This document shows, in pieces, positions 9,887 to 49,711 of a stretch of 64,000 nt of DNA. The stretch is from Dillenia suffruticosa. Lineage: Eukaryota > Streptophyta > Magnoliopsida > Dilleniales > Dilleniaceae. The stretch covers positions 19,202,001 to 19,266,000 of the forward strand of contig JAVTVX010000031.1 of NCBI GenBank assembly GCA_033439265.1, written 5' to 3'. Position 1 is the stretch's first letter. Each line of letters begins with the position of its first letter. The position numbers were made by a program, and so were the translations under genes. Below the pieces are notes generated by a model that saw nothing but the letters and a program-made list of their open reading frames with translations, did not search any database and was not told where the DNA came from.

Positions 9887-12800
9887 GTAAATATCACTTT
9901 CTTTTATATTTGTGTTCTCTCTCTTCATGTCAAAACTTGTGGGGTTTTCTTGTTGTTTATAGAGAGTTCACTTCAAGGATGAGAAGCATCGACGTGGAGA
10001 AATGCTGGCCGTTCGATGAGTCACCACCATCATCGAAGAAGAAGGAAATAAAAAAAGAGGATATGATCAATTTGCTTCCACCCATGTCTTGTCCTCAACA
10101 CAAATGGTGGTTTAATGAGCTAGAAAATATAAAGCAGAAAACGGGTCAAACTGCTTCAAATTTGGACCTACCGGCTCATGATGATGGTCTTGGTCGTGCC
10201 ATGATCAAGAAGGTCATGAAGGGTAAGGTGAAGAAGAGATCAATTGTGGATATATTTGCTTCTTCTTCCCCAATCATCAATCAAAGAAATAAACTAGAGT
10301 TGAATTCTACAAAGGAAAAGAAGACAAATAATAAGAAGAACAAGAAGAAAAATACTGCATTGATAAGCCAGAAGATACATAAGGTTAGTATTTTGATCAA
10401 GTCTTGTTTAAAGTTTTAATTTTGAATAATTTATTTTTAGGGGTTTGTTTGATTTTTACTTAATTATATTGGAGATCATGAACGTTGAATGAAAGGTAAG
10501 TGGATATGTGCTTGTGGGTTAGGTATAATTGTACTTGAGTTCATGTGATAGATAATGAAAAATTTGGTAAGAACAAGACATGGGGTTCCATGCTAATAGG
10601 GACTATAGGCGAGGTTATGGAGCTGAGTGCTGCTGGGTCTATCTTTTCTTTTAGCTGTCTCCTTTGTACGGATTATATGTTAGGCCATCAAGGGGGGGGG
10701 GGGAGAGGGGATTATTTTTGGACATGGAGAGTGATGCTTTTTTCCCATCACTGTTTCTTTCTTCACCGCTTTGATTTGTACTCATTGAAAACCACTTTTG
10801 GATGGACAGTATCCAAGTTTCTAGCTTTTCAGATGTTTGATCGTCTACTAACAAAACCTTGATATACATGAAATCGATTGATGGATGACAAATTTTGCAT
10901 TTGAGGAGGCTTTGCTTTTCTTGTTTCCAGGAAGAAGGTGATATTTCATTGGAAAAAGAAGCCAATAAAAGGGGAAAAAAAGGCTACCATTTTGAACATT
11001 TCTAGTGAAATCCATTACCATATATAATTTTGTTGAGGGCTTTTTTTATATCTTTTTTCTGTGAAGGCCTTTGAATTGAAGACTCTGGTAGTTTGTACTC
11101 TAGGATGGACCCTATGTCAAGAGTACTCATATCATATGGAATTTCTTTTACAATGGGTACAGAGTAACTTGTCTACTTGTCCTCTTAGTCTTCAAAGTGT
11201 ATGTAAAAGTAGGTTTCTGAATCTTTTGTAAACCACTTCTTGACATATCACGTTGTTTTGGTTTCTCCATACATCTCCAAATACTTTGTCTATTCTTTTT
11301 TCGCAATCACATGAACACTTCGCAGGCGATCATCTCGTCATCGTTGGTATTACTTGAAGAGTTTTTTGCATTCCTAGTTCAGATTTTGAGTTGATTTTCT
11401 TGAGTCCTATGTGGGTTTTGTTGGATACTAGAACAAACCCATCTCCTTAGATAAGCTTTCTCCATACCTTCTCTCAAGATTATATTCGTGGACTTAATAT
11501 TGTTATTGGATGCAATTTCTACGATGGGATTTGCTCGATTCACACTTGATTTTCAAGGAGTCGAGGCAATAGTATATCATAAATTCTTTCTGCACAGGTT
11601 CTAGTGAAAAGCAAGCATATGTAATCATTAATCTGTTCATACATACATACATACATAGGGAGTTTTATTCTTGATTTCTTCATGAATGATTGGACATTAG
11701 TTTTCTTTACATACATACATATGCTTAAGGAATATGTCCCTATTAGTATTTCAGAACATTGGTTATGTCTAAGAACAAGCAATGCTGTTTTGTGTCTTTC
11801 ACTTCTCAGGAAAAACCTGATAATAAGAAAAAGCAGCCTTCCGAAGATTCATCTGCAAAGTTTACATCTTCACAACCTATAACTGAGAGAGCTGGAAACG
11901 AAATCTCAGACACCATTTCTATCCATGAACTGAAATCTCTTTTCTTGGAAAGCCAATGTAGAGAGAAGCATAAAACAAGTAGTGGATTGTCCAAGTTGAA
12001 CACCAAGAGCAAAAAACTTGGACAAAGCAATAGTCCTATGTGCCATATTTTCAAGAACCGGGTCAGGGATACTTCAAAGCTGAATTCGTCCAAAGCTTGT
12101 TGCAGACATGTTCAAAGTCTAGAAACTCCTCTTCAACAACGAGTAAGTGAAGCAGATAAGGAAAGAGATGCTTCAAACAAGTTGGCCCAAGCTCAAAATA
12201 CTGGTAAAGTTATGAGTAAAACAATCATAGAAAGCGATGAAACTTCTGATTCTGCAATTGCTTTGGAAGGGAATGAAGAGGATGTTTCTGTTACTGTAAG
12301 CGAAGTTGATTTCGAGGAGCAAAGAGAGAGTAATTCTCAGGACAAATGTGTAGACTTGAATGACTCTTTTGGCAGTTCACATATTAGCCAATGTGACTAT
12401 GCTGAGAGACCTGAGCTGTCTAATTTGTGCTTTGCTTCTGCTGATTCAAACCCAAGTGAAGATTCCAGTGGTCCTTTGGATGCTCAAGCAATCAAGGACA
12501 TTGAATTGATGCCAGATTCTGTCACAACAAAATGGGCTGTTTCTGATCATTCACTGAAACATGATGCAGAAAATTCGTGGCCTTTATTTCTACATGATCC
12601 ATCCGCGAATGATAGGAAAAATGAAAAGGGTCTGTTTCTTCCTTCAAAAGATGGACAGAGAACTAGATGTAGCAGTGTTTTTCAGAAGCATTCATCCCCC
12701 CATTTGTCACAGGCAGATTTCTTGCGAGGCATGTCTTTCATGGCGGAGTTGAAGAAGCAAAGAAGCATTCTCTGTGGAGAAAACAAGGCATTTAATCAAG

Positions 12801-14047
12801 ATTTTCTTGGTTTGCCTCTGAATTCCCGGGGTCGATGGCCAAAATCGAGTTCAAGATCATGTGAATATGAGGTCAACCAATTGAAACAGCGAGAAATAGG
12901 TTCTTCAAAAGCCTCACAGATGGATACTTCTGTTCTTCCAACTAGTCCCAGAAATGCATTTTCTGCAGGAGAAAGGCATTTTGCGGAGAGATCACCTCCA
13001 ACTGTATGGAAGTTGAGTTCTTATCAACCACAAAGCATAGGACGCTCAGGACTACAGCATGATCCACAAACAGGAAGAGAGCATCGGTCCATTTCTGACT
13101 TTAAGTCCATGAACATACTGAAAAAAAGTAAGCAGATTCAAGAGACAGAAAACAATGAGAAGAATGTATTTGGTAACTGTTCAGAACCGATTTCACCAAT
13201 CGCTACAATGAGACTTATGGGTAAGGATCTTATTGTTGGCAGAGAACACAATCCTGTTGCTGGTAGGTCTGGCAAGGCAGAGGGAATTATAGCTCCCCCA
13301 TTTCAAGCTTCGCAAAATCCAAACTATTCAAGCCTTAGTAGGATGAAAGTGGCGGATTCAACAACTCATGCTAATTCATGCCAAAGAAATAGTTCTGATC
13401 TGGTCAAAGAAAATTCGTTCAACAAACAGCATTATTTTGGCCAAGCACCGCCTCAACCACATCAATCGGTTGGAATTGGAATTGGAATTCCACAAATTCG
13501 TCCACGTCCTTGCCTACCTGTTTCCACCTCTACGCATGTTAATGCTTTTCAGCCAGTGCTTCGGTTTTCTGCAGAAATTAGGAATAGCCAGAGTAAATAT
13601 TCCGCAACAAACACAACTTTCAAGTTTCCCTTCTTACAGCAGAATCAGCCCAATCATGTTCAATCGCAACTATTCCCAAGATTTATTCTGATCCCTTCTC
13701 TTCCAAGAATTTCTCCGAACATTTCAACACCTCAATTCTACCGTCCAATTGTTCCAGCACCTCCCGGATTCAAAGTTTCCCCTGCAGCCACTCCAAAATA
13801 TGGGAAGAAACCCATAATATTTCAGCTTGGGAATAATTATAACCATGCTTCGACAGCCAGAAAGAGGACTGCAGAGAAAGTAGTGCAGCATACACCAACA
13901 AAACGATCAAAGAAGTGCAAGCTAAACATGCAAGATTCAAGTTCCGAGTTCTTGACGCTCAACCAAGAGAATGAAGGATCTTCTGCCAAAAAGCCTTTCA
14001 TATTCTCAGGTCCTATTAAACTTGCGGCAGCAGAAAGCACACTCTGA
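9816..14047 (+). CDS. Plant-specific nuclear-type protein of unknown function, HAPLESS 8-like
   Basis: Three exons (9816-9847, 9963-10383, 11810-14047) give 896 residues. The first junction rebuilds one Arg codon; the second is phase 0. Exon 1 encodes MAVALEKFSIR and exon 2 continues REFTSRMRSIDVEKCWPF. A short N-terminal exon ending in this RMRS-DV-KCWPF motif is a hallmark I recall from an uncharacterised plant family annotated after Arabidopsis HAP8 (tentative). Residues 97-107 carry KVKKRSIVDIF, another recalled family motif. The remainder is long, low in predicted structure, Ser/Asn-rich, with acidic patches at about 245-285. A basic cluster near residues 834-855 (ARKRTAEK...TKRSKKCK) looks like a bipartite nuclear localisation signal. 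No enzymatic motif is visible. Intron 2 is 1.4 kb. HAP8 was named for a gametophyte transmission defect; whether this gene shares that role is unknown. Confidence 0.8.
9858..9882. repeat. (CT)n just inside intron 1 of the HAP8-like gene
   Basis: A CT microsatellite begins about ten bases after the intron 1 donor (9848). The intron is only 115 bp, so array length changes would alter a sizeable share of it. Confidence 0.75.
10684..10698. repeat. Poly-G run in intron 2 of the HAP8-like gene
   Basis: A G homopolymer followed by AGAGGGG in the 1.4-kb intron. It is error-prone for sequencing and otherwise unremarkable. Confidence 0.7.

Positions 14048-31108: not shown

Positions 31109-31153
<45 letters not shown>
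31109..31153. repeat. (GA)n array upstream of the AG-type gene
   Basis: Pure GA, 45 bp, about 640 bp upstream of the predicted transcription start. GA repeats are known binding sites for BASIC PENTACYSTEINE (BPC) factors at plant homeotic genes. Confidence 0.9.
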
Positions 31154-31154
<1 letters not shown>

Positions 31155-31406
31155 ATTGTTTATGGGGTACCAAAATAAGGTTCTCATAGTCTCCACTCCA
31201 AGTAATTTGTGTATCAAAGGAATGAAATCTTAGGCATAATTTGATAAATTAAAAAAAAGGATTAAAATCAAAATAAATTAGAAGGGAAGTGTATGGTAAG
31301 TCGAATAATTAGGTTCTTCACCTTACATTGGAGGTTAAGACTTGAGTGCAACCTTAGCGCGTCTTATTCACACCCACCTTAATAATCGCTTTCATAAAAG
31401 TCCTTT

Positions 31407-31410
<4 letters not shown>

Positions 31411-31483
<73 letters not shown>

Positions 31484-31489
31484 CCCCCT
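31411..31489. repeat. (CT)n array with C-run upstream of the AG-type gene
   Basis: A 70-bp CT array followed by a nine-base C run, about 260-330 bp upstream of the predicted start site. With the GA arrays at 31109, 31623 and 31776 it makes the promoter unusually rich in GAGA-type sequence. Confidence 0.9.
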
Positions 31490-31711
31490 CCAATAATTCA
31501 CAAGAAAAAAAGGGTCACTCTAATGGGTTGATGGAGTCTGAATCAAACAAGAGATTTCCCTATTTAGTCTTCTCTCTTTGGTTCTTCTTCAATAAAAACC
31601 ACCTTGCAAAATAAACAAAAATAGAGAGAGAGAGAGAGAGGAAGTGAGGGAGAGAGAGAGAGATTTAGCTTAAGTGGCTTTGGATAGTTGATGAAGGGTC
31701 GTTTTTAACTT

Positions 31712-31719
31712 TATAAATA
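31712..31719 (+). promoter_or_regulatory. TATA box of the AG-type gene
   Basis: TATAAATA lies in a setting with no competing TATA. It would place transcription start near 31743-31750. The resulting leader exon (to 31856) ends at CAACAG followed by GTATAG, which fits the spliced 5' UTR known from AG genes. Confidence 0.65.
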
Positions 31720-31744
31720 CCCTTCCATTTTCTGCATCGTCTTT

Positions 31745-31773
31745 GCCCTTCTCTTCAAGATTTAACACAAAAC

Positions 31774-31816
<43 letters not shown>

Positions 31817-31856
31817 TGTCATCAATTTTTCTTCCTCTTCGTTGTTTACTCAACAG
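31745..31856 (+). other. Leader exon (5' UTR exon 1) of the AG-type gene
   Basis: The exon contains a 35-bp GA array (31776-31810) and no ATG in any frame. The donor CAACAG|GTATAG is at 31857, the intron runs 31857-32160, and the acceptor TTATAG precedes 32161. The frame that leads into the ACG codon at 32170 is open through the whole leader, with no in-frame stop and no ATG. The 5' boundary is estimated from the TATA box. Confidence 0.6.
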
Positions 31857-32169
31857 GTATAGTTTGCAGCTAAATACATTGAAACACAATTCTAAATCAT
31901 TTTCAATGCTTCACTTCTTTTGGGATTTGTAAATAGTTTTTCCCCCGAAATTTCCTTTTTCTTATATATTTCCTCTTCCTTCGATCTTCAAAAAATCCTG
32001 AATTTAGGCACACCAAAAATTTTGGAACAACCTCTTTCTTAAAACAAACTAAATTTTTCCTTATATATATTTCAACATAAAATGATTTATATGCCAAACA
32101 GTATACATATACATATGTACTTTTATTTATTTTTTTTATTTTATTTATTTTTTTTTATAGATTTCAACC

Positions 32170-32172
32170 ACG
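32170..32172 (+). promoter_or_regulatory. AG: Probable non-AUG (ACG) translation start of the AG-type gene
   Basis: Context is ACC-ACG-G, with A at -3 and G at +4, the optimal plant initiation context. From here the frame reads [17 protein letters not shown] and joins the MADS domain at the ATG of 32221. Many AG-lineage proteins begin with a similar short pre-MADS extension starting with Met-Glu-Phe-Pro or the like (recalled), so ACG stands where ATG is expected. Arabidopsis AG is known to start at ACG (Riechmann and co-workers, 1999). Initiation here is inferred from sequence only. Confidence 0.65.
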
Positions 32173-34513
32173 GAGTTTCCAAAGCAACAAAGGGAGATCT
32201 CAACATCTCCCCAGAAAAGAATGGGAAGAGGGAAGATCGAGATCAAAAGGATCGAGAACACCACGAATCGTCAAGTGACATTTTGTAAGAGAAGAAATGG
32301 TTTACTCAAGAAGGCTTATGAATTGTCTGTTCTTTGTGATGCTGAGGTTGCTCTCATCGTCTTCTCAAGCCGCGGTCGCCTTTATGAGTATGCCAACAAC
32401 AGGTATACATACAACCACACACATACCTATCTCCCCCCCCCCCCTCTCTCTCTCTCTCTCCAATTTTTGTTTTTCTTTTCATAAAAACATATGGGTACTA
32501 GTCACATAAATGTTTAGATGTTAATTTTCATTTTCTGTGCTAGTTTCTCTAGATTTGAGCTTTTACAATTGGATTTTTCTTTTTTCTTTCTTTCCTTTTT
32601 TTTTTTTCTTTTATGCAAGTTGATTTTGAGTTCCATAGTAAAAAAGATTTGCTTGCTTGTTTTTGTACAATTTTTCTTCTACCTTTTTTTTTTTTTTGTC
32701 TCGTGTGGGAAAGAGAGTTTTTTCTTTTCGATTTTTTATGATCCAATTTTGGAATTTTGTAGATAGATGGATCTGCTCGTAAGAGAGATAGAAATAGAAA
32801 AGTGTTTATAGTTGAAGTTTCAAATGGCATAGAGCAACAAGTTAGAGATTTTGGTAAAGGTGTTATCAGTCCTGTGAGATACGAGGTCATCCTCTTACCT
32901 CCTCCATTGTTGCTAAAAAAACTTTTCCTCTCTCTCTCTCTCTCTCTCTATCTCTCCATCCTTCTTGACACTTCCTTAGTAGCACGTCAGTTTTTTGAAA
33001 CATAAATACATAAATAAAAACAAAAGAGTGTGTCTCAGAAAGTTATCATGTACTGTCAAGAAAAACCAAGTTTAGGGTTTCGGCATTCAAGATCCAAATT
33101 GGGTTTTCTTTCACTTTTTCTTTTTATTCATTTATTTATTTATTTTTGGGTTGGGATTTTTCCTCTTGAAACAACATATGAAGATACCCTTTACAGCCAA
33201 TCACAATCAAGCCACAACCAAGTTATTGATTCATTTTTTAAATTTTCTTCACTTTTGGTCAACCCCGTATGACCCAAATTAGGGTTTGCTAGCCCACTTA
33301 CATAGACTTGTTAAATTTATTCCCCAACAAAAAAAAGGAAGAATGTGCTTGTGTATGTGTATGTGTGTATATATATGTCTCAAACAAGGAAAAGGGAAAA
33401 GACAAGACTGAAACACCACAAAGGATTTCATAAATTTCAAAATTTTACCAAGTTTAGATCATATATAGTCTATTTAGGATTTGTGAAGATCAAGAGTTAG
33501 TTTTATTTTTACAAAATAAGAATCTTTTGGTCACGTCAGGCAAACACACGGTTCCTCACTTTTTTTCTTCATTTCTTGACTTGGTTTCTGACTTAAGAAT
33601 GCAGTCATGTGATTCCATAATTAGGGTTTGTTTGAACATCAATCTGAACCCCAATGTTTCTCTTCAATGGTGAAACTACCCTTCTTGGCTTTTCTTTTTT
33701 TCTTTTTTTAATTTTTTTGTTGGGTTTGGTTGTGTGTATGTATGGACAAAGATTTTATGGATCTCTTTAGCAGTTTGAACCTTTTGCAAGGCTTCTGAAG
33801 TTGAAACTCTACCTCGGTGCAGAGATATGAGAGAGAGAGAGAGAGAGATCAGCCAATGAGGAAAAAGAAAAAAGCCCATCATCTCACATAGTGTAAGCAA
33901 GGCATTCCTCAAACAAACACCAGTCACGTTATTTGAAGATCTTGTAAAGATATATTTATGCAAGAGAGAGAGAAAGAGAGTCAATGAGCAAAAAAAGAGG
34001 AGAGAGAGATAGACAGGGAGACAGAGAAAGAAACAGTACGGAGACTGAGGAGCCAATGGGAGAGTTGTGAGGATTTGGCTTCTTTCATTTGCATGGGGAG
34101 GGTACAAAAGAACGGCTCTGATGGCTTACTCAGAGTTTTCAGTAGGAAAAGACTTAGTTTTTTATTATTTTATTTAAAAAAATGAACTTTTTGGGTTTTC
34201 GAATTTACTTAGGAGGATATTAGGGTATGTTAAGGATATTGACCCTTATGTAATAGTATGTGTTAGACACGTGTCATTTAGGGGTTGGAGTGGAGTTTCT
34301 AGCCAATCATACCGTAAGAATTCTGCCAGCGGGGCAGAGATAGCCAATCACTGGCTCGATGAAATTAAGGTAGCATTTACTGCTACATCAAGAAATGTGG
34401 TTTCACTGTGAACATTACTATTATTAGTATTTTCCTCTACATATTTTTATTTATTAATTTCTATTTTTGGCTTATTTTATATCCATAGCAAGAGCATGAG
34501 AAAACAATTTTCA

Positions 34514-34551
<38 letters not shown>

Positions 34552-37500
34552 TTAAATAGTCACCATAATTTTCAGCTAGGAAAGACTACATTTTTTATGG
34601 TACTTCTTCAATGTACATTAATATTATATATATTTTTAAAAAATATATTTAATCATTTGTTCTATATATCCAATTTATACATTTAGTAATTTTTTAATTG
34701 TGATAAATTACCTAAAATAGAGTATTTTGGGATGTAGGGTTATTTGTTTTATGCAAACTTTGTTAGATTTAGGATATGAACGATACAAGTGTTCTTGAAT
34801 TATAATTTAACTGATATTATTTTTTTTCTTTAAATATTTTGAATTTGAAACTCTCTTTTGTACAAAAAAAAACCATAAACTCTTTTTAAGAATCGACCCT
34901 TTTATTAATTTATTTATTTTTTATCATTTGGGCCCGCTAAAAATGACTAGCAATAAGTTCAAAAAATTTTACCCTTTTGATGATTTTTTTTATTTTTATT
35001 TTTATAGCCATAGATTTTTATTGTTTTTAAAAGAAAATTCTTCAAGTAATGTGAATAATAAAAATTATGTTGAAAATAGCTGCAAATTAATATTAGGCAA
35101 AAAGAATGGATTTCGTACCAAAATTAACTTGTTGCTTTTCATCCATACCACAAAAGTATCCTATGTTTCTGCATTCATTACATAATAGTAATAACATGGA
35201 TAACATTTCTTTGAAATTTATCATATGCTAGAGATGAAATATATTAGTAGCTTATGGCTTAAATTGTTATTTAAATTTGGCCACACCTAACTTATGTGCT
35301 AATTTAAACCAAATGCATGTCTAAAATTTGATCTTAGGGAGAAGTAAAGAGTTTTATTTGATGATATTAGCTATTTTAGCTGGTAAAAACAAGATCACGC
35401 TTCAAATTCCATTGGTTCAAAATTTCCGAGTCCCGATCTTGTTATGTGAAACATAAAGCTAATAATGGAGAAGAAAAATAGAATAACTTATTAAATGCAA
35501 TAAAAACTATATATATATATGTATGTATATAGTGTGTGTGTTTGTGTTTGTGTTTTGCTTGACAAAAGCTAAAACATATATTGTTAGCAGTGAAGAAAGA
35601 TCCATCATATTCCTTCCAATTAGGAGAAAGGAAAAGAATGCTTTGCTGTCAAGTGTAAAAAGTAATTGTTCTGCGCAATACACACACAGAGACACTCTAT
35701 TTGCCTAAAGTCTCTTGGGTTGTTGCATAAAGACCTAGCTTGAGATAATTTTGCATTAACTGGAGTTGTGGAAATTTATAAACCCTCTGCAACACTGGAC
35801 CCAAAAATGAAAATATCTTGCATGACTACCTTAAAATTTCTCTAAATCTAACTCCAAAAAACTAAATCAAAGCTAGCTTTGGCTACATGTAAGTTGTTGA
35901 CCCCTTTATGGTGGAGTTTGGAAATATTCAGCTGAGCTCAACTTGTCTCAACTAAGTTTTATTCTGTCTTATTTAGTATTTAATATTTTCTACTAAAAAA
36001 ATTCTTAATTTTTGGTGTTTTCAATCTTTTGGCTATTATGAGGTAAGTTTGCAATATTATGTTTGGGAGAAATAAAATATTTTCATTTTGTTGAATAAAA
36101 ATCGAATGTAAATATCATGGTAAAAAAAATGATCTCAGTACAACATATGAAATAAAGTACTTTGAAATTAGATCATTTCTTGTAAAAGCACCTTTCCATT
36201 TCTTGCATGGTTTATTTCATTTCTCATGATTAATTTTATACAAAATCACGGAATGAAATTACTTCAGTTCTTTAGACATTAAAACAGACCCTAAAGTAGC
36301 TTATTTTCTAGTAAAAATTGCAAATCCTTTATCTTCGATTAGATTAGAATGTGTTATTCTTCACCAAAATGACCTTAGAAATCATCAGGGGTGAAGTTTA
36401 CAAGTCCCAACCAGAAGCACATGACCTTTAAATGGCAAATCACCTCAATGTCTCTTTGGCCATTTCCCTTTACCTATAGTTCAAGTTGAAATCCAAAAAG
36501 AATCAAGAAAATCCCATGAAAGACATAAATTCCGACCCTACACTCCAAACCCCCCCCCCCCCAAAAAAAGAATGTTATATTGATTTCCTCGTTTCCTTTA
36601 GTTGCCTTCTAGTTCTTTTCGTTCTCTGCTTCTACTAACCCCTTGAGATCCAACATTCTACATGGGTGAAATGTGTCCTTATAAACACGATTGTTTAATG
36701 TTATGCGATTGTAGTGTTAAAACAACAATAGAGAGGTACAAGAAGGCCTGCTCAGATTCCTCCAACAATGGAACTACTACTGAAGCTGATGCCAAGGTCA
36801 GATACTCTTTATCCTTCCGGCTAAAATTTTAGCCTCCTACATAGATATTTGCTTGCTTCGAAATTACGTTTGTGTAGTCTACATTTTCCAAAATGTAAAG
36901 AAGTTAATGATTGTACCGGCCACTGAACCAACAAGCCGTTGCTGTTATAAAACTTTTATAATTTTATACTACTACTATATTTATATTATAGTATTTTGTG
37001 TTACGTGTTCTTGTAATATAATAAGTTCTAATACAATGACAGTTCTAAGAGGGCCACGGGGTGACATGGCCCCCCAAAATTTTCAAAAGTATTATTTCTG
37101 TCCCCCCTAAATTTTCAATTTTTTTAAATATATTATTTTTTAAAGAAAATTTTAAATTTTGGCCTGACATAAAAATCTGAGACCGCTGACCCAACCTCAG
37201 CATTATGTGTTTTGAAGAGACTTTCTAACATATAAACTCTAAAACAGTTCTACCAGCAAGAGGCTGCAAAACTGCGCAACCAAATCAATAACTTACAGAA
37301 CCAGAACAAGTAAGTATATACTATGCTTCCTTAATGCTTGGCTGATTATTTAGGCCACCTTTCTGTGATTAGAGAAAAAATGGGTGATTTTGAATGTTCT
37401 GTTTGATTTTTCCAGGCATATGGTTGGAGAAAATATTAGTGGTATGAATTCCAAGGAGCTGAAGAACCTTGAGACTCGAGTTGAGAAAGCCATTAGCCGT

Positions 37501-38118
37501 GTCCGATCCAAGAAGGTATCAGTGGTTAAATCAACAGAGATGTATCCTCACTTAACTCCCATATATGGAACCTAACTATTTAATCTTTTTTTCTTTGTCA
37601 GAATGAACTGTTGTTTGCTGAAATCGAGTATATGCAGAAGAGGGTATGTCTTCCTTATTCCAAGCATATTCTGCGTACTCTAATGATGCAGAGAAAATGT
37701 GGTCTTGATTTTAATAATAAAAATTATATAATCATATATATACTAAATAATCAATTTTATGTCAGAGATGGAACAAAATGGTAAATATTTCTACCTTGTA
37801 ATTTAGGAAACCCCACATTTCTGGAGATTTTTCTTATGTGGTGCAGGATAAAGGAGGTTTCGTTGTTGACCAACCTGTTTGATCCACAGAACTTTGTGAG
37901 AGACAAGTACAATTCTGATAGGGGGATGTCTTAACAAACATTACTCTTATAGGAAAAAGAAAAATGCATATTTTGAGATTGCAAAGCATTGGCAAACTTA
38001 AAGAAAATATGTGGCTGTGCAAAAAAGATTGGTTTATAATTTGTATCTCATAGTTAACAATTAAGCTATATATTGCAGGAGATTGACTTGCATAACAGTA
38101 ATTTGTATCTCCGAGCCA

Positions 38119-38165
<47 letters not shown>

Positions 38166-38834
38166 GTGCACCAACAAAATACTTAAGTGCAAACATCATT
38201 TTGGTGGTGTGTGCAGATTGCAGAGAATGAAAGAGCACAGCAGCAAATGAACTTAATGCCAGGGGGTTCTGACTACGAGCTTATTGCATCGCAACCATAT
38301 GACTCTCGAAACTACCTCCAAGTAGATGGTCTGGGAACCTCGTTCTCTCGCCAAGACCAAACTGTGCTTCAATTGGGGTACTTATCCTTATCTGTCTCAA
38401 AGACTACTAAGCTTGCGTCAATACTTCAGCAAACACTACAAAATATATGCGTGCGTCTCGATTTTTGCTTTTTCAAAGAAATATTCTGTTGTTATACACA
38501 TGCAACTCCCCTCAATGGTTGTGTTAATGATGATATCAGAGATCCAAATCTGCAAAGTCAATTTGATCTCCAAGGCTACCTTTAACATCAAAACTTCACC
38601 ATGATCACCATTATATATATTATCCTTCTCGATTTTTGCTTCGTTCAAAGAAATATTATTTTGGTAGTACAATTGTGAGATGAAAAAGTATACAAGGACA
38701 TAAGCAACTACCCTCAAGTTTTATTAACCTTCAAAGCCGCCAGAAATAGAATCTCCTTTTGATCCCCGATGGCTGATTAGATAAAAACCTACAATATGCT
38801 TAGCTATTGATTACTAATATTTTTGTGCAGTTAA
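32170..38834 (+). CDS. AG: AGAMOUS-lineage MIKC MADS-box transcription factor
   Basis: Coding exons: 32161-32402, 36715-36796, 37248-37309, 37416-37515, 37602-37643, 38079-38120, 38217-38377 and 38831-38834, all phase-compatible. From the ATG at 32221 the protein has 224 residues; from ACG at 32170, 241. The MADS domain ([18 protein letters not shown] onward, residues 1-60) is followed by the I region ([13 protein letters not shown]), the K domain (about 87-170, including two 42-nt exons typical of AG genes) and a C-terminus with AG motifs: [22 protein letters not shown] and RQDQTVLQL. The last codon before the stop is split by intron 38378-38830, as in AG homologues, so the protein ends LQLG. 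The C-class factor acts in the nucleus, in complexes with SEPALLATA proteins, to specify stamens and carpels and end the floral meristem (family knowledge). SHP-lineage membership is the alternative; flanking genes favour AG. Confidence 0.92.
32743..32752. promoter_or_regulatory. CArG box in AG intron
   Basis: CCAATTTTGG is a perfect CC(A/T)6GG site, the binding sequence of MADS-domain proteins. It could serve autoregulation or repression by other MADS factors. It lies about 340 bp into the intron; conservation of this site is unknown. Confidence 0.5.
33197..33203 (+). promoter_or_regulatory. CCAATCA box in AG intron (isolated)
   Basis: One CCAATCA copy, about 1.1 kb before the clustered pair. 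A 7-mer can occur by chance, so this one is weaker. Confidence 0.35.
33651..33657 (+). promoter_or_regulatory. LEAFY-type site CCAATGT in AG intron
   Basis: CCAATGT matches the known LEAFY core CCANTG(T/G) used in the Arabidopsis AG intron. It is followed by CCAATG cores at 33853 and 34053. Confidence 0.45.
33853..33858 (+). promoter_or_regulatory. LEAFY-type core CCAATG in AG intron
   Basis: AGCCAATGAG directly follows a GA array. Its core matches CCANTG but the seventh base is A, so affinity may be lower. Confidence 0.35.
34053..34059 (+). promoter_or_regulatory. LEAFY-type site CCAATGG in AG intron
   Basis: AGCCAATGGGAG fits the LEAFY consensus CCANTG(T/G). It lies 250 bp before the CCAATCA/AAGAAT block, matching the order known from AG enhancers. 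Confidence 0.45.
34266..34350 (+). promoter_or_regulatory. Conserved AG-enhancer block: G-box, CCAATCA, AAGAAT, CCAATCA
   Basis: The block contains GACACGTGTC (34266-34275, palindromic G-box), CCAATCA at 34303-34309, AAGAAT at 34316-34321 and CCAATCA at 34344-34350. Paired CCAATCA boxes next to an AAGAAT box are the motif set found by phylogenetic footprinting of Arabidopsis and other AG introns (Hong and co-workers, 2003, recalled). This is the strongest regulatory match in the intron and independent support for AG identity. Confidence 0.7.
34512..34555. repeat. (TA)n in AG intron
   Basis: A run of TA dinucleotides with one TGTA break, roughly 44 bp, shortly downstream of the enhancer block. 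Confidence 0.8.
37035..37190. repeat. Probable transposon fragment in the AG intron after exon 3
   Basis: The stretch has GGGGTGACATGGCCCCCC, then AAATTTTC words and CCCCCCTAAATTTTC, ending before TTTGGCCTGACATAA. Such GGCCCCC-AAATTTT modules are a common dispersed repeat in plant genomes (recollection). It differs in composition from the surrounding intron. No termini were identified. Confidence 0.3.
38121..38165. repeat. (CT)n abutting the donor of AG exon 38079-38120
   Basis: Intron 38121-38216 starts GTCTCTCT..., with the CT array beginning at the splice donor, and the array ends in CTCTCAG|GTG. The array thus resembles a polypyrimidine tract and acceptor. The real acceptor is TGTGTGCAG at 38216, because only that restores the frame to [10 protein letters not shown]. 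Confidence 0.85.
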
Positions 38835-39009
38835 TGAGCTTATGAAGCAACTCTTGAAGCCGTTAGTTCTTAATCTACATGTGGAGAGGCTCTTAATGTC
38901 TTGTTTGATGGGAGTTGTAGGTATGTTCCATAATGTATTTGTGGAGGGTCATGTAATACCCTCTTTTGCAATTTGTGTAATGTGGTCATAAGACTTTGCC
39001 AGTATGTAA
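38835..39009 (+). other. 3' UTR of the AG-type gene
   Basis: Follows the TAA at 38832-38834. T-rich sequence with TGTAAT/TGTGTAATGTGG words fits a plant polyadenylation region near 38960-39000. The exact end is unknown. Confidence 0.45.
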
Positions 39010-40348: not shown

Positions 40349-42049
40349 TTCTCTTTTCTCGACTCCCTTGTATGAACTTGGAAAGAAAAGTAGTTTTTTC
40401 TTTTATCAGCTTTAAGTGTAAATTAATCCAACTATAGTACAGCTCATTTCACCATGATACTAGAATTTTTATACCTTCTTCCACTATATGAATATATTCT
40501 CCTTCTGGCCAATAAATTATAATTTAATTAATACTATCCCCTTCTTTTAGATGTCTTAAGTTCGAATCCCCTTAGAAGTCATAAGTTTGAATCTCTCCTG
40601 TAAACTAATATATATATAATCTCCTCCTCATATTTAGGGTCTTTGGCCACTTATTGAAAAAATTCCAAGGATCTTGCCTTTCCCATAATTTTGGAGTTTA
40701 GGGGTACCCCATATTCTGGTCCGATGTGTGATTTCCTTAGCTTTACATTGATAGAATTATTAGGAAAAGGTTTCTAAAACAAGAAAGAGAAATCAATAGT
40801 AATTTATTACTAAAGAGTAGCAGCACAAATTTATAGGTACTTTATATTCCATCATCCTTCACAGGAACATGTTTATTTCATATGTTATTTTAGTAGGACA
40901 TTTATTTAAAAGAAAGGACCATATTTTTGAGAAGAAACTCTTATGGAATACACCATGTCCATATTTGCTGTGAACTATAACCGCTGAACCAGGTGATGAA
41001 TATCATAAGGATAAGCATCAGAGGGAAGCTGAGCATCATATGACCGTGTCACGACTATTACATTAGTTCTCTCAGTAAGATGATAAGGATCCTAAAACAG
41101 ATAGTCGCTCCTGTTCTGACATGGCATTTGATGTGGAAGACAATTGTTTACACCATTGTAATTCCCCCATCAACAGCATGCGGTTTTATCGAACGTAAAC
41201 CCTGAAATAGAAGACCAAAAGTATCATGATCATGCATCTTTCGGAATTTGATATGAACTTAAAAGCTATATTAAGTACCTTGAAAAGATAAACGAGTCTC
41301 AATTTCAGAAACGTTTACAAAAATAAATTTCGCGTCATTAGATGCATTGTTCAGTTCATTAACGAGCGCTTTGAGCTTGTCATTGAAAAGCATGACCGCA
41401 GCATTGACATTATCCACACATGGAGAGCCTTCGGTGCCACATTTGGCCAACATATGCAGAATGCAGCCTATTCGACCTAGTCCAAGCAAAGCCAACGTTT
41501 CTTGCTCCATGGCCTTATAAAACCTTGGATTAATAATATAAGTTTTAATTTCAAAATTTGAAATTGATTGTTTAAGAAATCAATATAGAATAAATCTAGT
41601 ATTAATAATAAAAAGAAAAATCCAAATCATTTTTAGGCAAATTTTATAAAGCCAAGAAAATGCTTTGAAGTTGAAAACATATATTTATTTGTATAGTATA
41701 TTATTGAATTAGTGCGAAATATATTTATTTTGGAAATTGATCGGTAAAAATATAAAAAAAGGGTAAATATTCTTCTGGCGTATATGTTTGACTTGTTGAA
41801 TAAGCACGTGGTAGTTGTTGATGTTGCCATTCCGACATAGTATAAGCACTTCCCTGGTATTTGTCAGGATCTCCCGGTAGACCAGCGAGAATGGAAATAG
41901 TGATCCGATGATGGTACAATGGCTCACCCATTGTATTAAAAATAGCAGACCATATTAAATAGATATATAAACAAAATTTTGGTTTCACAATAAATATGAA
42001 AAGCAATATAAAATAACATTAAATGTAATATTTCATTACTTCAATAGAT

Positions 42050-48915: not shown

Positions 48916-49214
48916 GGCATGACAGATAAATACTCGCTAAAATTGAAATATGTCAAGAGAATAGTTTAAATACTCTTGCTAAAATTAAAATTGAAATTTT
49001 GAAATGAAATCATTCTTCTTTCCTGAAATCAATATATTTTGTCAAATTCTCATAAAAAAAATTATTCAATCAAATAAAAATATTGATAATTTAATTAAAA
49101 ATTAGTTTAAATATGTCGTGTTGACTTTAAGCACTATTATGCAATGCAAACTCAAAGAAAACAATTTGCCGCCTGAATTATCAAGTGTATCTGTGTGCTT
49201 GTGTGCGTGTGTGC

Positions 49215-49265
<51 letters not shown>

Positions 49266-49544
49266 GAGAAGAAGAAGAAGAAGAAGAAGAAGAAGAAGCT
49301 CACCTATGACATCAACAGTAGTTTTACCATTGGAGAACCTTCCAGTTGGTCCTGCAGGGAAGTCAATCCCATAAGGCAAGTAATTCGCTCTAGCCAAAGA
49401 AGCAATGCCATTGTTATTCCCATTGTCCACCAAAGAGTCACCAAATATAAAGTAACAAGGAACCTGTGGTTCTGCCAAAACCCCACAATCCCAATTCAAA
49501 ATTAGTACAAACCCCGCCAACCATTTCATCAGCTTACAAGCCAT
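46283..49544 (-). CDS. GDSL esterase/lipase, secreted (SGNH hydrolase)
   Basis: Five exons (minus): 49304-49544, 47414-47538, 47079-47324, 46723-46978 and 46283-46506, giving 363 residues, the usual length. The start is the ATG at 49544; upstream GTG is not needed. Residues 1-24 form a signal peptide ending near VLAEPQVPC. Block I is [14 protein letters not shown] with nucleophile Ser37; block II includes [11 protein letters not shown]; block III is LGSNDYLNN with Asn168; block V is [11 protein letters not shown] with Asp327 and His330. All SGNH residues are present. These enzymes hydrolyse lipid or other ester bonds in the apoplast; the substrate cannot be read from sequence. From memory, Arabidopsis At4g18970 occupies the same place beside AG. 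Intron 1 has GAAGAA and GA microsatellites starting just inside its donor. The gene heads towards the pseudogene and AG. Confidence 0.95.
47637..47845 (-). repeat. SINE-like repeat copy in lipase intron 1
   Basis: Reverse copy: T-run, AACTGATATCCGAAATCATA, TGACTAATTTAATTCGAGAC, and head with TCTCAATTGGTCACAATTGA. Confidence 0.6.
48690..48870 (-). repeat. SINE-like repeat copy in lipase intron 1
   Basis: Reverse copy with a T-run, AATAAAATCTGACCTGCTAT, TCCTCTTTAAGAAAACTCTT and ATTTTGATTAAGAGAGTTAA. More diverged than its neighbour at 47637. Confidence 0.45.
49217..49298. repeat. (GA)n plus (GAA)n in lipase intron 1 next to the donor
   Basis: A GA array (49217-49262) runs into about nine GAA units that end 5 bp from the donor of exon 1 (49303). 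On the transcribed strand the intron starts GTGAGC then (TTC)n(CT)n. Confidence 0.9.
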
Positions 49545-49711
49545 TGACACCCCCACCGCCTAAAAGGTATAAGATGAGAATGTAGATTCCCAAAAGGCAA
49601 TATAACCCTATTGAAGGCGCAAAGGTGCAGGGTATGTGCCCCGGAAAATGCAACGTGGTGCTTGTGAGGAAATTAAAAGCCAAGGAGAGAAATATATATA
49701 AAAGAACCAAC

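Follow-up and report, generated by a model that had tools for sequence, protein, structure and literature searches.

An AGAMOUS-type gene of Dillenia suffruticosa probably initiates the longer of two protein forms at an ACG codon, and leaky scanning to an in-frame ATG at the boundary of the MADS domain would give the shorter form. The gene lies in the window, that is, the whole stretch of 64,000 nucleotides of nuclear DNA analysed here (G000:C31:19202001-19266000). According to the proposed mechanism, scanning ribosomes would find no AUG in the leader, and some of them would initiate with methionine at the ACG at 32170, which lies in the near-ideal context ACC-ACG-G, thereby producing a protein of 241 residues, the first 17 of which form an N-terminal extension. 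The remaining ribosomes would scan 51 further bases to the AUG at 32221 and synthesize a 224-residue protein starting exactly at the MADS domain. In plants, ACG is used with a small fraction of the efficiency of AUG and, consequently, the 224-residue form may well predominate. That the ACG is decoded as a start is an inference from the sequence, and so are the proportion in which the two forms would be made and any difference in their function. An ACG start followed by an in-frame AUG, as put forward in a preliminary description of this DNA, appears to be well supported by the anatomy of the gene and by two ACG-bearing paralogs.

The window contains a complete AGAMOUS-type MIKC MADS gene, located on the + strand between 31.7 and 38.9 kb. 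The gene model comprises an inferred leader exon and eight coding exons, for a total of nine exons and eight introns, all of the GT-AG type, with an intron of 4.3 kb behind the MADS exon. Specifically, the MADS domain is encoded by exon 2 (32161..32402), which also holds the end of the leader and the N-terminal extension, and this is followed by coding exons at 36715..36796, 37248..37309, 37416..37515 (K-box, also detected by Pfam), 37602..37643, 38079..38120 and 38217..38377. The last exon starts at 38831; its first bases (38831..38837) finish a glycine codon and provide the TAA stop, and the rest would be 3′ UTR. Splicing to 38831 results in the C-terminus QDQTVLQLG, at a position which we take to be typical of the family; an alternative last exon at 38540, giving 255 residues from the ACG, was set aside in favor of this family-typical end. 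In the product, both the MADS domain (PF00319, 93.4 bits) and the K-box (PF01486, 94.3 bits) score above the Pfam cut-offs, and among PDB sequences the closest match is to the K domain of AG from Arabidopsis (8cra_A). PMC4126672 gives eight introns as typical of C-lineage genes and reports large introns for AGAMOUS-subfamily genes; accordingly, the eight introns and the large intron after the MADS exon agree with what is expected of this subfamily. On the basis of these sequence features, the window gene is classified as a C-class (AGAMOUS-lineage) MIKC MADS gene.

The 5′-region of the gene was modelled from sequence signals, with the TATA box and the splice sites defining the transcription start and the ends of the leader exon. 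A candidate TATA box, TATAAATAC, is found at 31712..31720, and matches to it are present 5′ of the C12 and C19 copies too. The inferred leader exon, whose start is approximate (31745..31856), includes a (GA)n run at 31776-31810, ends at the donor CAG/GTATAG and is followed by a leader intron of 304 bases (31857..32160). Exon 2 begins at 32161 behind ...TTTATAG and reads ATT TCA ACC ACG GAG TTT CCA ... AAA AGA ATG GGA AGA, remaining open into the MADS domain, as reported in the preliminary description. Direct inspection of the ACG (32170..32172, the putative start codon of the 241-residue form) and of the ATG (32221..32223, the start of the 224-residue form) recovered the A at -3 and the G at +4 that had been noted for both codons. 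Moreover, the gene model reproduced exactly the expected lengths of 241 residues from the ACG and 224 from the ATG, as well as an extension made of the start codon plus 16 codons (32173..32220), that is, 17 residues if the ACG is the start. The spliced leader had also been described as lacking any ATG before 32221, and no ATG was found from the TATA box at 31712, via the donor at 31856, to 32220; the ATG at 32221 would then be the first AUG of the inferred mRNA. In the inferred leader, therefore, no AUG precedes the extension, the ACG lies in a good context, and the two in-frame starts have no AUG before or between them. Upstream of the ACG, the window copy has an open frame along the whole inferred leader, so that the frame alone cannot single out the ACG, and the decision falls to the paralogs.

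The paralogs were sought in the genome of the same plant, using its own assembly of 596 Mb in 37 contigs. When this genome was searched with exon 2, 4 of the 40 listed matches (40 of 49 candidates were scored) spanned the extension, namely the window gene itself, on contig C31, and copies on contigs C12 (95%), C19 (83%) and C30 (79%). The three additional copies were modelled and the reading frame proved to be intact in each of them, the C12 model stopping a few bases short of the coding end with its frame open to QDQTVLQL. The four genes form two recent pairs, the window gene with C12 (Ks 0.154) and C19 with C30 (Ks 0.208), and the distance between the two pairs is large (Ks 1.47-1.79, with 1.47 for the window gene versus C19). 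At the start region the codons are ATT TCA ACC ACG GAG TTT CCA AAG in the window gene, ATT TCA ACC ACG GAG TTT TCA AAT in C12, CTT TCA ACC ACG GAG TTA CCA AAT in C19 and CTT TCA ACA TCG GAG TTA CTG AAT in C30. That is, the ACG occupies the homologous codon in three of four copies, while the ATG at the MADS boundary and an intact extension frame are found in all four. The preliminary description had envisaged that the non-AUG start could be either shared or of independent origin: the ACG predates the duplication that separated C31 from C12 and occurs as well in the anciently diverged C19, which provides a partial answer. Frame-breaking indels in the extension, which had been proposed as a refuting observation, were not encountered among the same-genome paralogs, where the sole indel measures 3 bases. 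A different leader contributing an in-frame ATG, another of the proposed refutations, was likewise not seen in the genomic sequence.

The leaders of the ACG-bearing copies are alike in a further respect, since no ATG is present between the TATA box and exon 2 in the inferred leaders of C12 and C19. In C12, the leader donor (CAG/GTATGG) is placed exactly as in the window gene. In C19, the frame spliced at the inferred sites reads TAG CAG CTT TCA ACC ACG, with a stop codon five codons upstream of the ACG, and the four codons in between include no one-base neighbour of AUG; consequently, in that spliced model the extension cannot begin before the ACG. As a control, four other MADS genes of the genome (L005-L008), which resemble SEPALLATA genes, were inspected over up to 30 genomic, unspliced upstream codons, and no ACG was found there; one of them has a stop immediately 5′ of its ATG. 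Exon 2 was also sought in a set of genome contigs (78 pattern matches, none confirmed) and in a set of viral contigs (3 pattern matches, none confirmed), as expected for a plant gene.

The sequence surrounding the ACG is conserved to a greater extent than the peptide that it would open. The 16-base start context TTTCAACCACGGAGTT (32162..32177) occurs three times in 596 Mb, in the C31, C12 and C19 genes, against none for the reversed-pattern control, and this occurrence at an AG-type gene every time is more than would be expected by chance. A search for the same 16-mer with up to three mismatches in the window alone is uninformative (1 match versus 0.60 expected). Between the window gene and C12, 2 changes are found in the 51 bases 32170-32220, compared with 37 changes in 300 aligned bases of intron 1 and 15 in 129 aligned bases of the leader. 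In the comparison with C19, the first 17 exon bases match at 16 positions, whereas the remainder of the extension matches at 24 of 40 aligned bases; of the nine bases preceding the ACG, 8 are identical (binomial 0.0016), and the synonymous-site identity is 36%. The extension itself has a Ka of 0.50 between C31 and C19, and the C31-C12 comparison yields 2 replacement and 0 silent changes, with no sign of a silent-over-replacement bias. The extension thus evolves quickly and the start context is conserved more than the peptide; Ka and change counts lend no support to codon-level purifying selection on the extension peptide.

These patterns have to be weighed against a simpler scenario, in which only the AUG at 32221 is used and the 51 bases before it are an open 5′ UTR, the relic of an ancestral extension that started with ATG. 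The AUG, which is in a good context, is present in all four copies and would by itself yield a normal MADS protein; the high Ka of the extension and the missing silent bias between C31 and C12 agree with this scenario, as does the survival of C30 with TCG in place of ACG. A relic, however, would be unlikely to keep an identical 16-base context at a Ks of 1.47 beside a remainder matching at only 24 of 40 bases, nor would drift be expected to leave ACG at the homologous codon of both old branches; moreover, the inferred leaders are free of ATG in all three ACG copies, and the copy devoid of ACG has an ATG at -86. Exclusive use of the AUG is therefore considered unlikely, although it is the most serious competitor of the dual-start reading. 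Far less probable is that the bases 3′ of the acceptor are kept for splicing or for other features of the mRNA, with another upstream non-AUG codon, for example an in-frame TTG or ATT, starting the long form. The conserved bases do adjoin the splice acceptor, and the open frame of the window leader offers several near-cognate codons; yet the conserved block covers the ACG and the GAG and not the acceptor alone, and the TAG directly upstream in C19 rules out an earlier start there. C12 also has an in-frame TAA in its leader, though near-cognate codons remain between this TAA and the ACG.

The transcription start of the model was deduced from the TATA box only, and an alternative first exon or promoter might provide an in-frame ATG. 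This appears highly improbable, as the TATA box and the leader donor are kept in C12, and C19 combines a TATA box with an ATG-free leader. Furthermore, the last three bases of the leader intron, TAG at 32158-32160, are a stop in the extension frame and would close any start located within a retained intron, thus blocking unspliced variants at the acceptor, while the nearest ATG 5′ of the TATA box (31691) opens, as read by eye, an ORF of just 5 codons ending with TAA. Since ACG and ATG are one base apart, an ordinary ATG could also have been turned into this codon by an error of sequencing or assembly, or by mutation in a single allele; three separate loci carrying ACG in an identical context make this explanation hardly credible. 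Conversion of the ACG to AUG by C-to-U RNA editing was rejected, as this kind of editing is known to us from organelles only.

The dual-start reading also has to account for C30, the copy without ACG. Its codon is TCG, two changes away from AUG. In its leader, an ATG at -86 (numbered relative to exon 2) opens, as read by eye, an overlapping frame that ends at a TGA of exon 2 before the MADS ATG. At most 20 bases separate a second ATG, at -162, from the spot matching the TATA box, and this ATG may lie outside the transcript. Of the protein changes separating C30 from C19, 13 were assigned by outgroup to C30 and 5 to C19, with 9 ambiguous. The absence of the ACG would therefore go along with faster evolution and with an ATG-containing leader, in an association based on one case. 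The frame of C30 is intact in spite of the missing ACG, which indicates that some members can do without the long form. The view of C30 as a degenerating gene was rejected, its later exons being present about 44 kb downstream with the frame intact. The C30 locus (L004, L011, L028) extends over G000:C30:10745234 to 10792482, and the intron behind the MADS exon, 4.3 kb long in the window gene, measures 16.6 kb in C19 and about 44 kb in C30.

The closest known system is AG of Arabidopsis, which is not known to have a methionine or AUG at the MADS boundary and whose ACG is reportedly needed to rescue ag mutants; its ACG start is said to have been described by Riechmann, Ito and Meyerowitz in 1999 (Mol Cell Biol 19:8505). 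As judged from its sequence, the window gene shares with AG the C-class MADS identity, an ACG predicted to open the frame and a putative short pre-MADS extension. Unlike AG, the window gene has an AUG at the MADS boundary, so that a second, shorter protein is expected, and its extension begins EFPKQQ... in place of the AYQSEL... of AG. The Arabidopsis precedent cited in the preliminary description is confirmed by PMC2001202, where AG is described as ACG-started. According to PMC4126672, C-lineage proteins carry 13-52 residues N-terminal to the MADS domain, to be compared with the 17 residues predicted here if the ACG is the start. In-frame near-cognate extensions are also documented elsewhere in plants, as in the case of NsRpoT-C, extended from a CUG (PMC2001202), and in the TI-seq surveys summarised in PMC11062462. 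The window gene is similar to these cases in having a near-cognate codon 5′ of the main coding region and in frame with it, and differs from them in that codon and context are common to anciently diverged paralogs of a homeotic gene. In the open-licence literature, represented mostly by titles and the beginnings of abstracts, no report was found of AG or PLE genes, other than Arabidopsis AG, that start at a non-AUG codon, and the N-terminal peptides of relatives had no match in the text of that literature. Non-AUG initiation of a master floral regulator is known from Arabidopsis. What appears to be new here is the second AUG, together with the ACG in an anciently diverged, probably PLENA-type paralog.

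The assignment of the four copies to lineages relies on a small, provisional tree that includes seven approximate reference sequences. In this tree, C19 and C30 are nearest to SHP1 (support 57), within a group of SHP1, TAGL1 and FAR (support 89), whereas C31 and C12 fall outside the group of AG, PTAG1, SHP1, TAGL1 and FAR (support 74). The closest identity of the window gene is with PTAG1 (76%, against a likewise approximate reference); this value and the number of introns would suit a euAG gene, a placement that the tree does not show. C19 and C30 contain the motif NLLEP and end in LQLV, both of which are presumably typical of PLE-lineage proteins. By tree position, motif and ending they resemble the PLENA/SHATTERPROOF lineage (SHP1, TAGL1, PLE), and are probably PLENA-type; the PLE-lineage genes known to us start at ATG, whereas that codon is ACG in C19. 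PMC4126672 classifies FAR as a euAG gene, and the position of FAR on the PLE side indicates that the tree is rough. The same source dates the euAG/PLE split early in core-eudicot history. If the branch assignment is right, the ACG would be present in both the euAG and the PLE branch of one genome, as a result of either retention since the split or parallel change, with gene conversion less likely for so short a tract.

A tentative possibility is that the ACG predates the euAG/PLE split and has been kept in both branches of this lineage since, a weak first start followed by an AUG at the MADS boundary serving to fix the ratio of long to short form. The genes of tomato, petunia, Antirrhinum and poplar start at ATG, which counts against a simple ancestral ACG, and for this reason such an origin is regarded as rather doubtful. 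If the ACG were ancestral, Arabidopsis AG would represent the remnant of an old non-AUG start and not an oddity, and the species with ATG starts would have acquired them later, in place of the ACG. If ATG had instead changed to ACG twice, independently, within one genome, this would amount to parallel selection for weak initiation. The presence of ACG at the homologous codon across an ancient paralog pair (Ks ~1.5) suggests a maintained feature, not a quirk of sequencing or annotation, and gene callers that accept only AUG would shorten such proteins. The four copies offer a natural comparison, three with ACG and an ATG-free inferred leader and one without ACG and with a leader ATG, and this contrast makes the importance of the long form, as well as the tuning of C-class dose by a weak start, testable.

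A hairpin downstream of the ACG was considered as well. A stem of 7 pairs (GGGAGAT/ATCTCCC, -10.3 kcal/mol) is predicted at 32192..32211, beginning at position 23 counting from the A of the ACG; for Arabidopsis AG, a predicted hairpin at position 30 is mentioned in PMC2001202. Out of 300 shuffles, 19 were equally strong for C31, 14 for C12, 10 for C19 and 2 for C30. With 19 shuffles as strong, the hairpin of the window gene is only suggestive and, being statistically strongest in the TCG copy, it does not separate the ACG copies from the latter. In C19 it is placed more 3′, beyond position 30, where the zone used by AUG_hairpin ends, and fold z-scores over the first 90 bases range only from -0.7 to -1.5.

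The surroundings of the gene present some additional features. Long (GA)n or (TC)n runs extend over promoter and leader (31109-31810); the inferred leader exon holds 17.5 GA copies, and C12 is 16 bases shorter there. Two CCAATCA sites 41 bases apart are found in the large intron (34303-34350), a pair that we take to correspond to the one in the AG second-intron enhancer; window-wide, the motif is at chance level (14 versus 13.3 expected). Upstream of the AG gene, an open exon of 766 codons (11747-14047, + strand) has no Pfam match and presumably resembles EMF1, while downstream, GDSL lipase-like exons at 41271-41579 and 49152-49559, both on the - strand, score under the Pfam cut-off. Two of two qPCR primers of Toona sinensis, taken from the larger Table 2 of PMC10607221, had no exact match in the genome, in a comparison that would also overlook primers spanning an exon junction or containing a variant base. 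When the genome was searched with actinidin, identity reached no more than 63% for partial matches and 57% for long matches. Tandem arrays of matches to papain-type proteases are located at G000:C12 35.68-35.92 Mb and at G000:C31 18.08-18.50 Mb, at a distance of about 0.5-1.2 Mb from the AG genes of these two contigs; their position near both genes suggests duplicated chromosome segments in which the arrays have been expanding separately.
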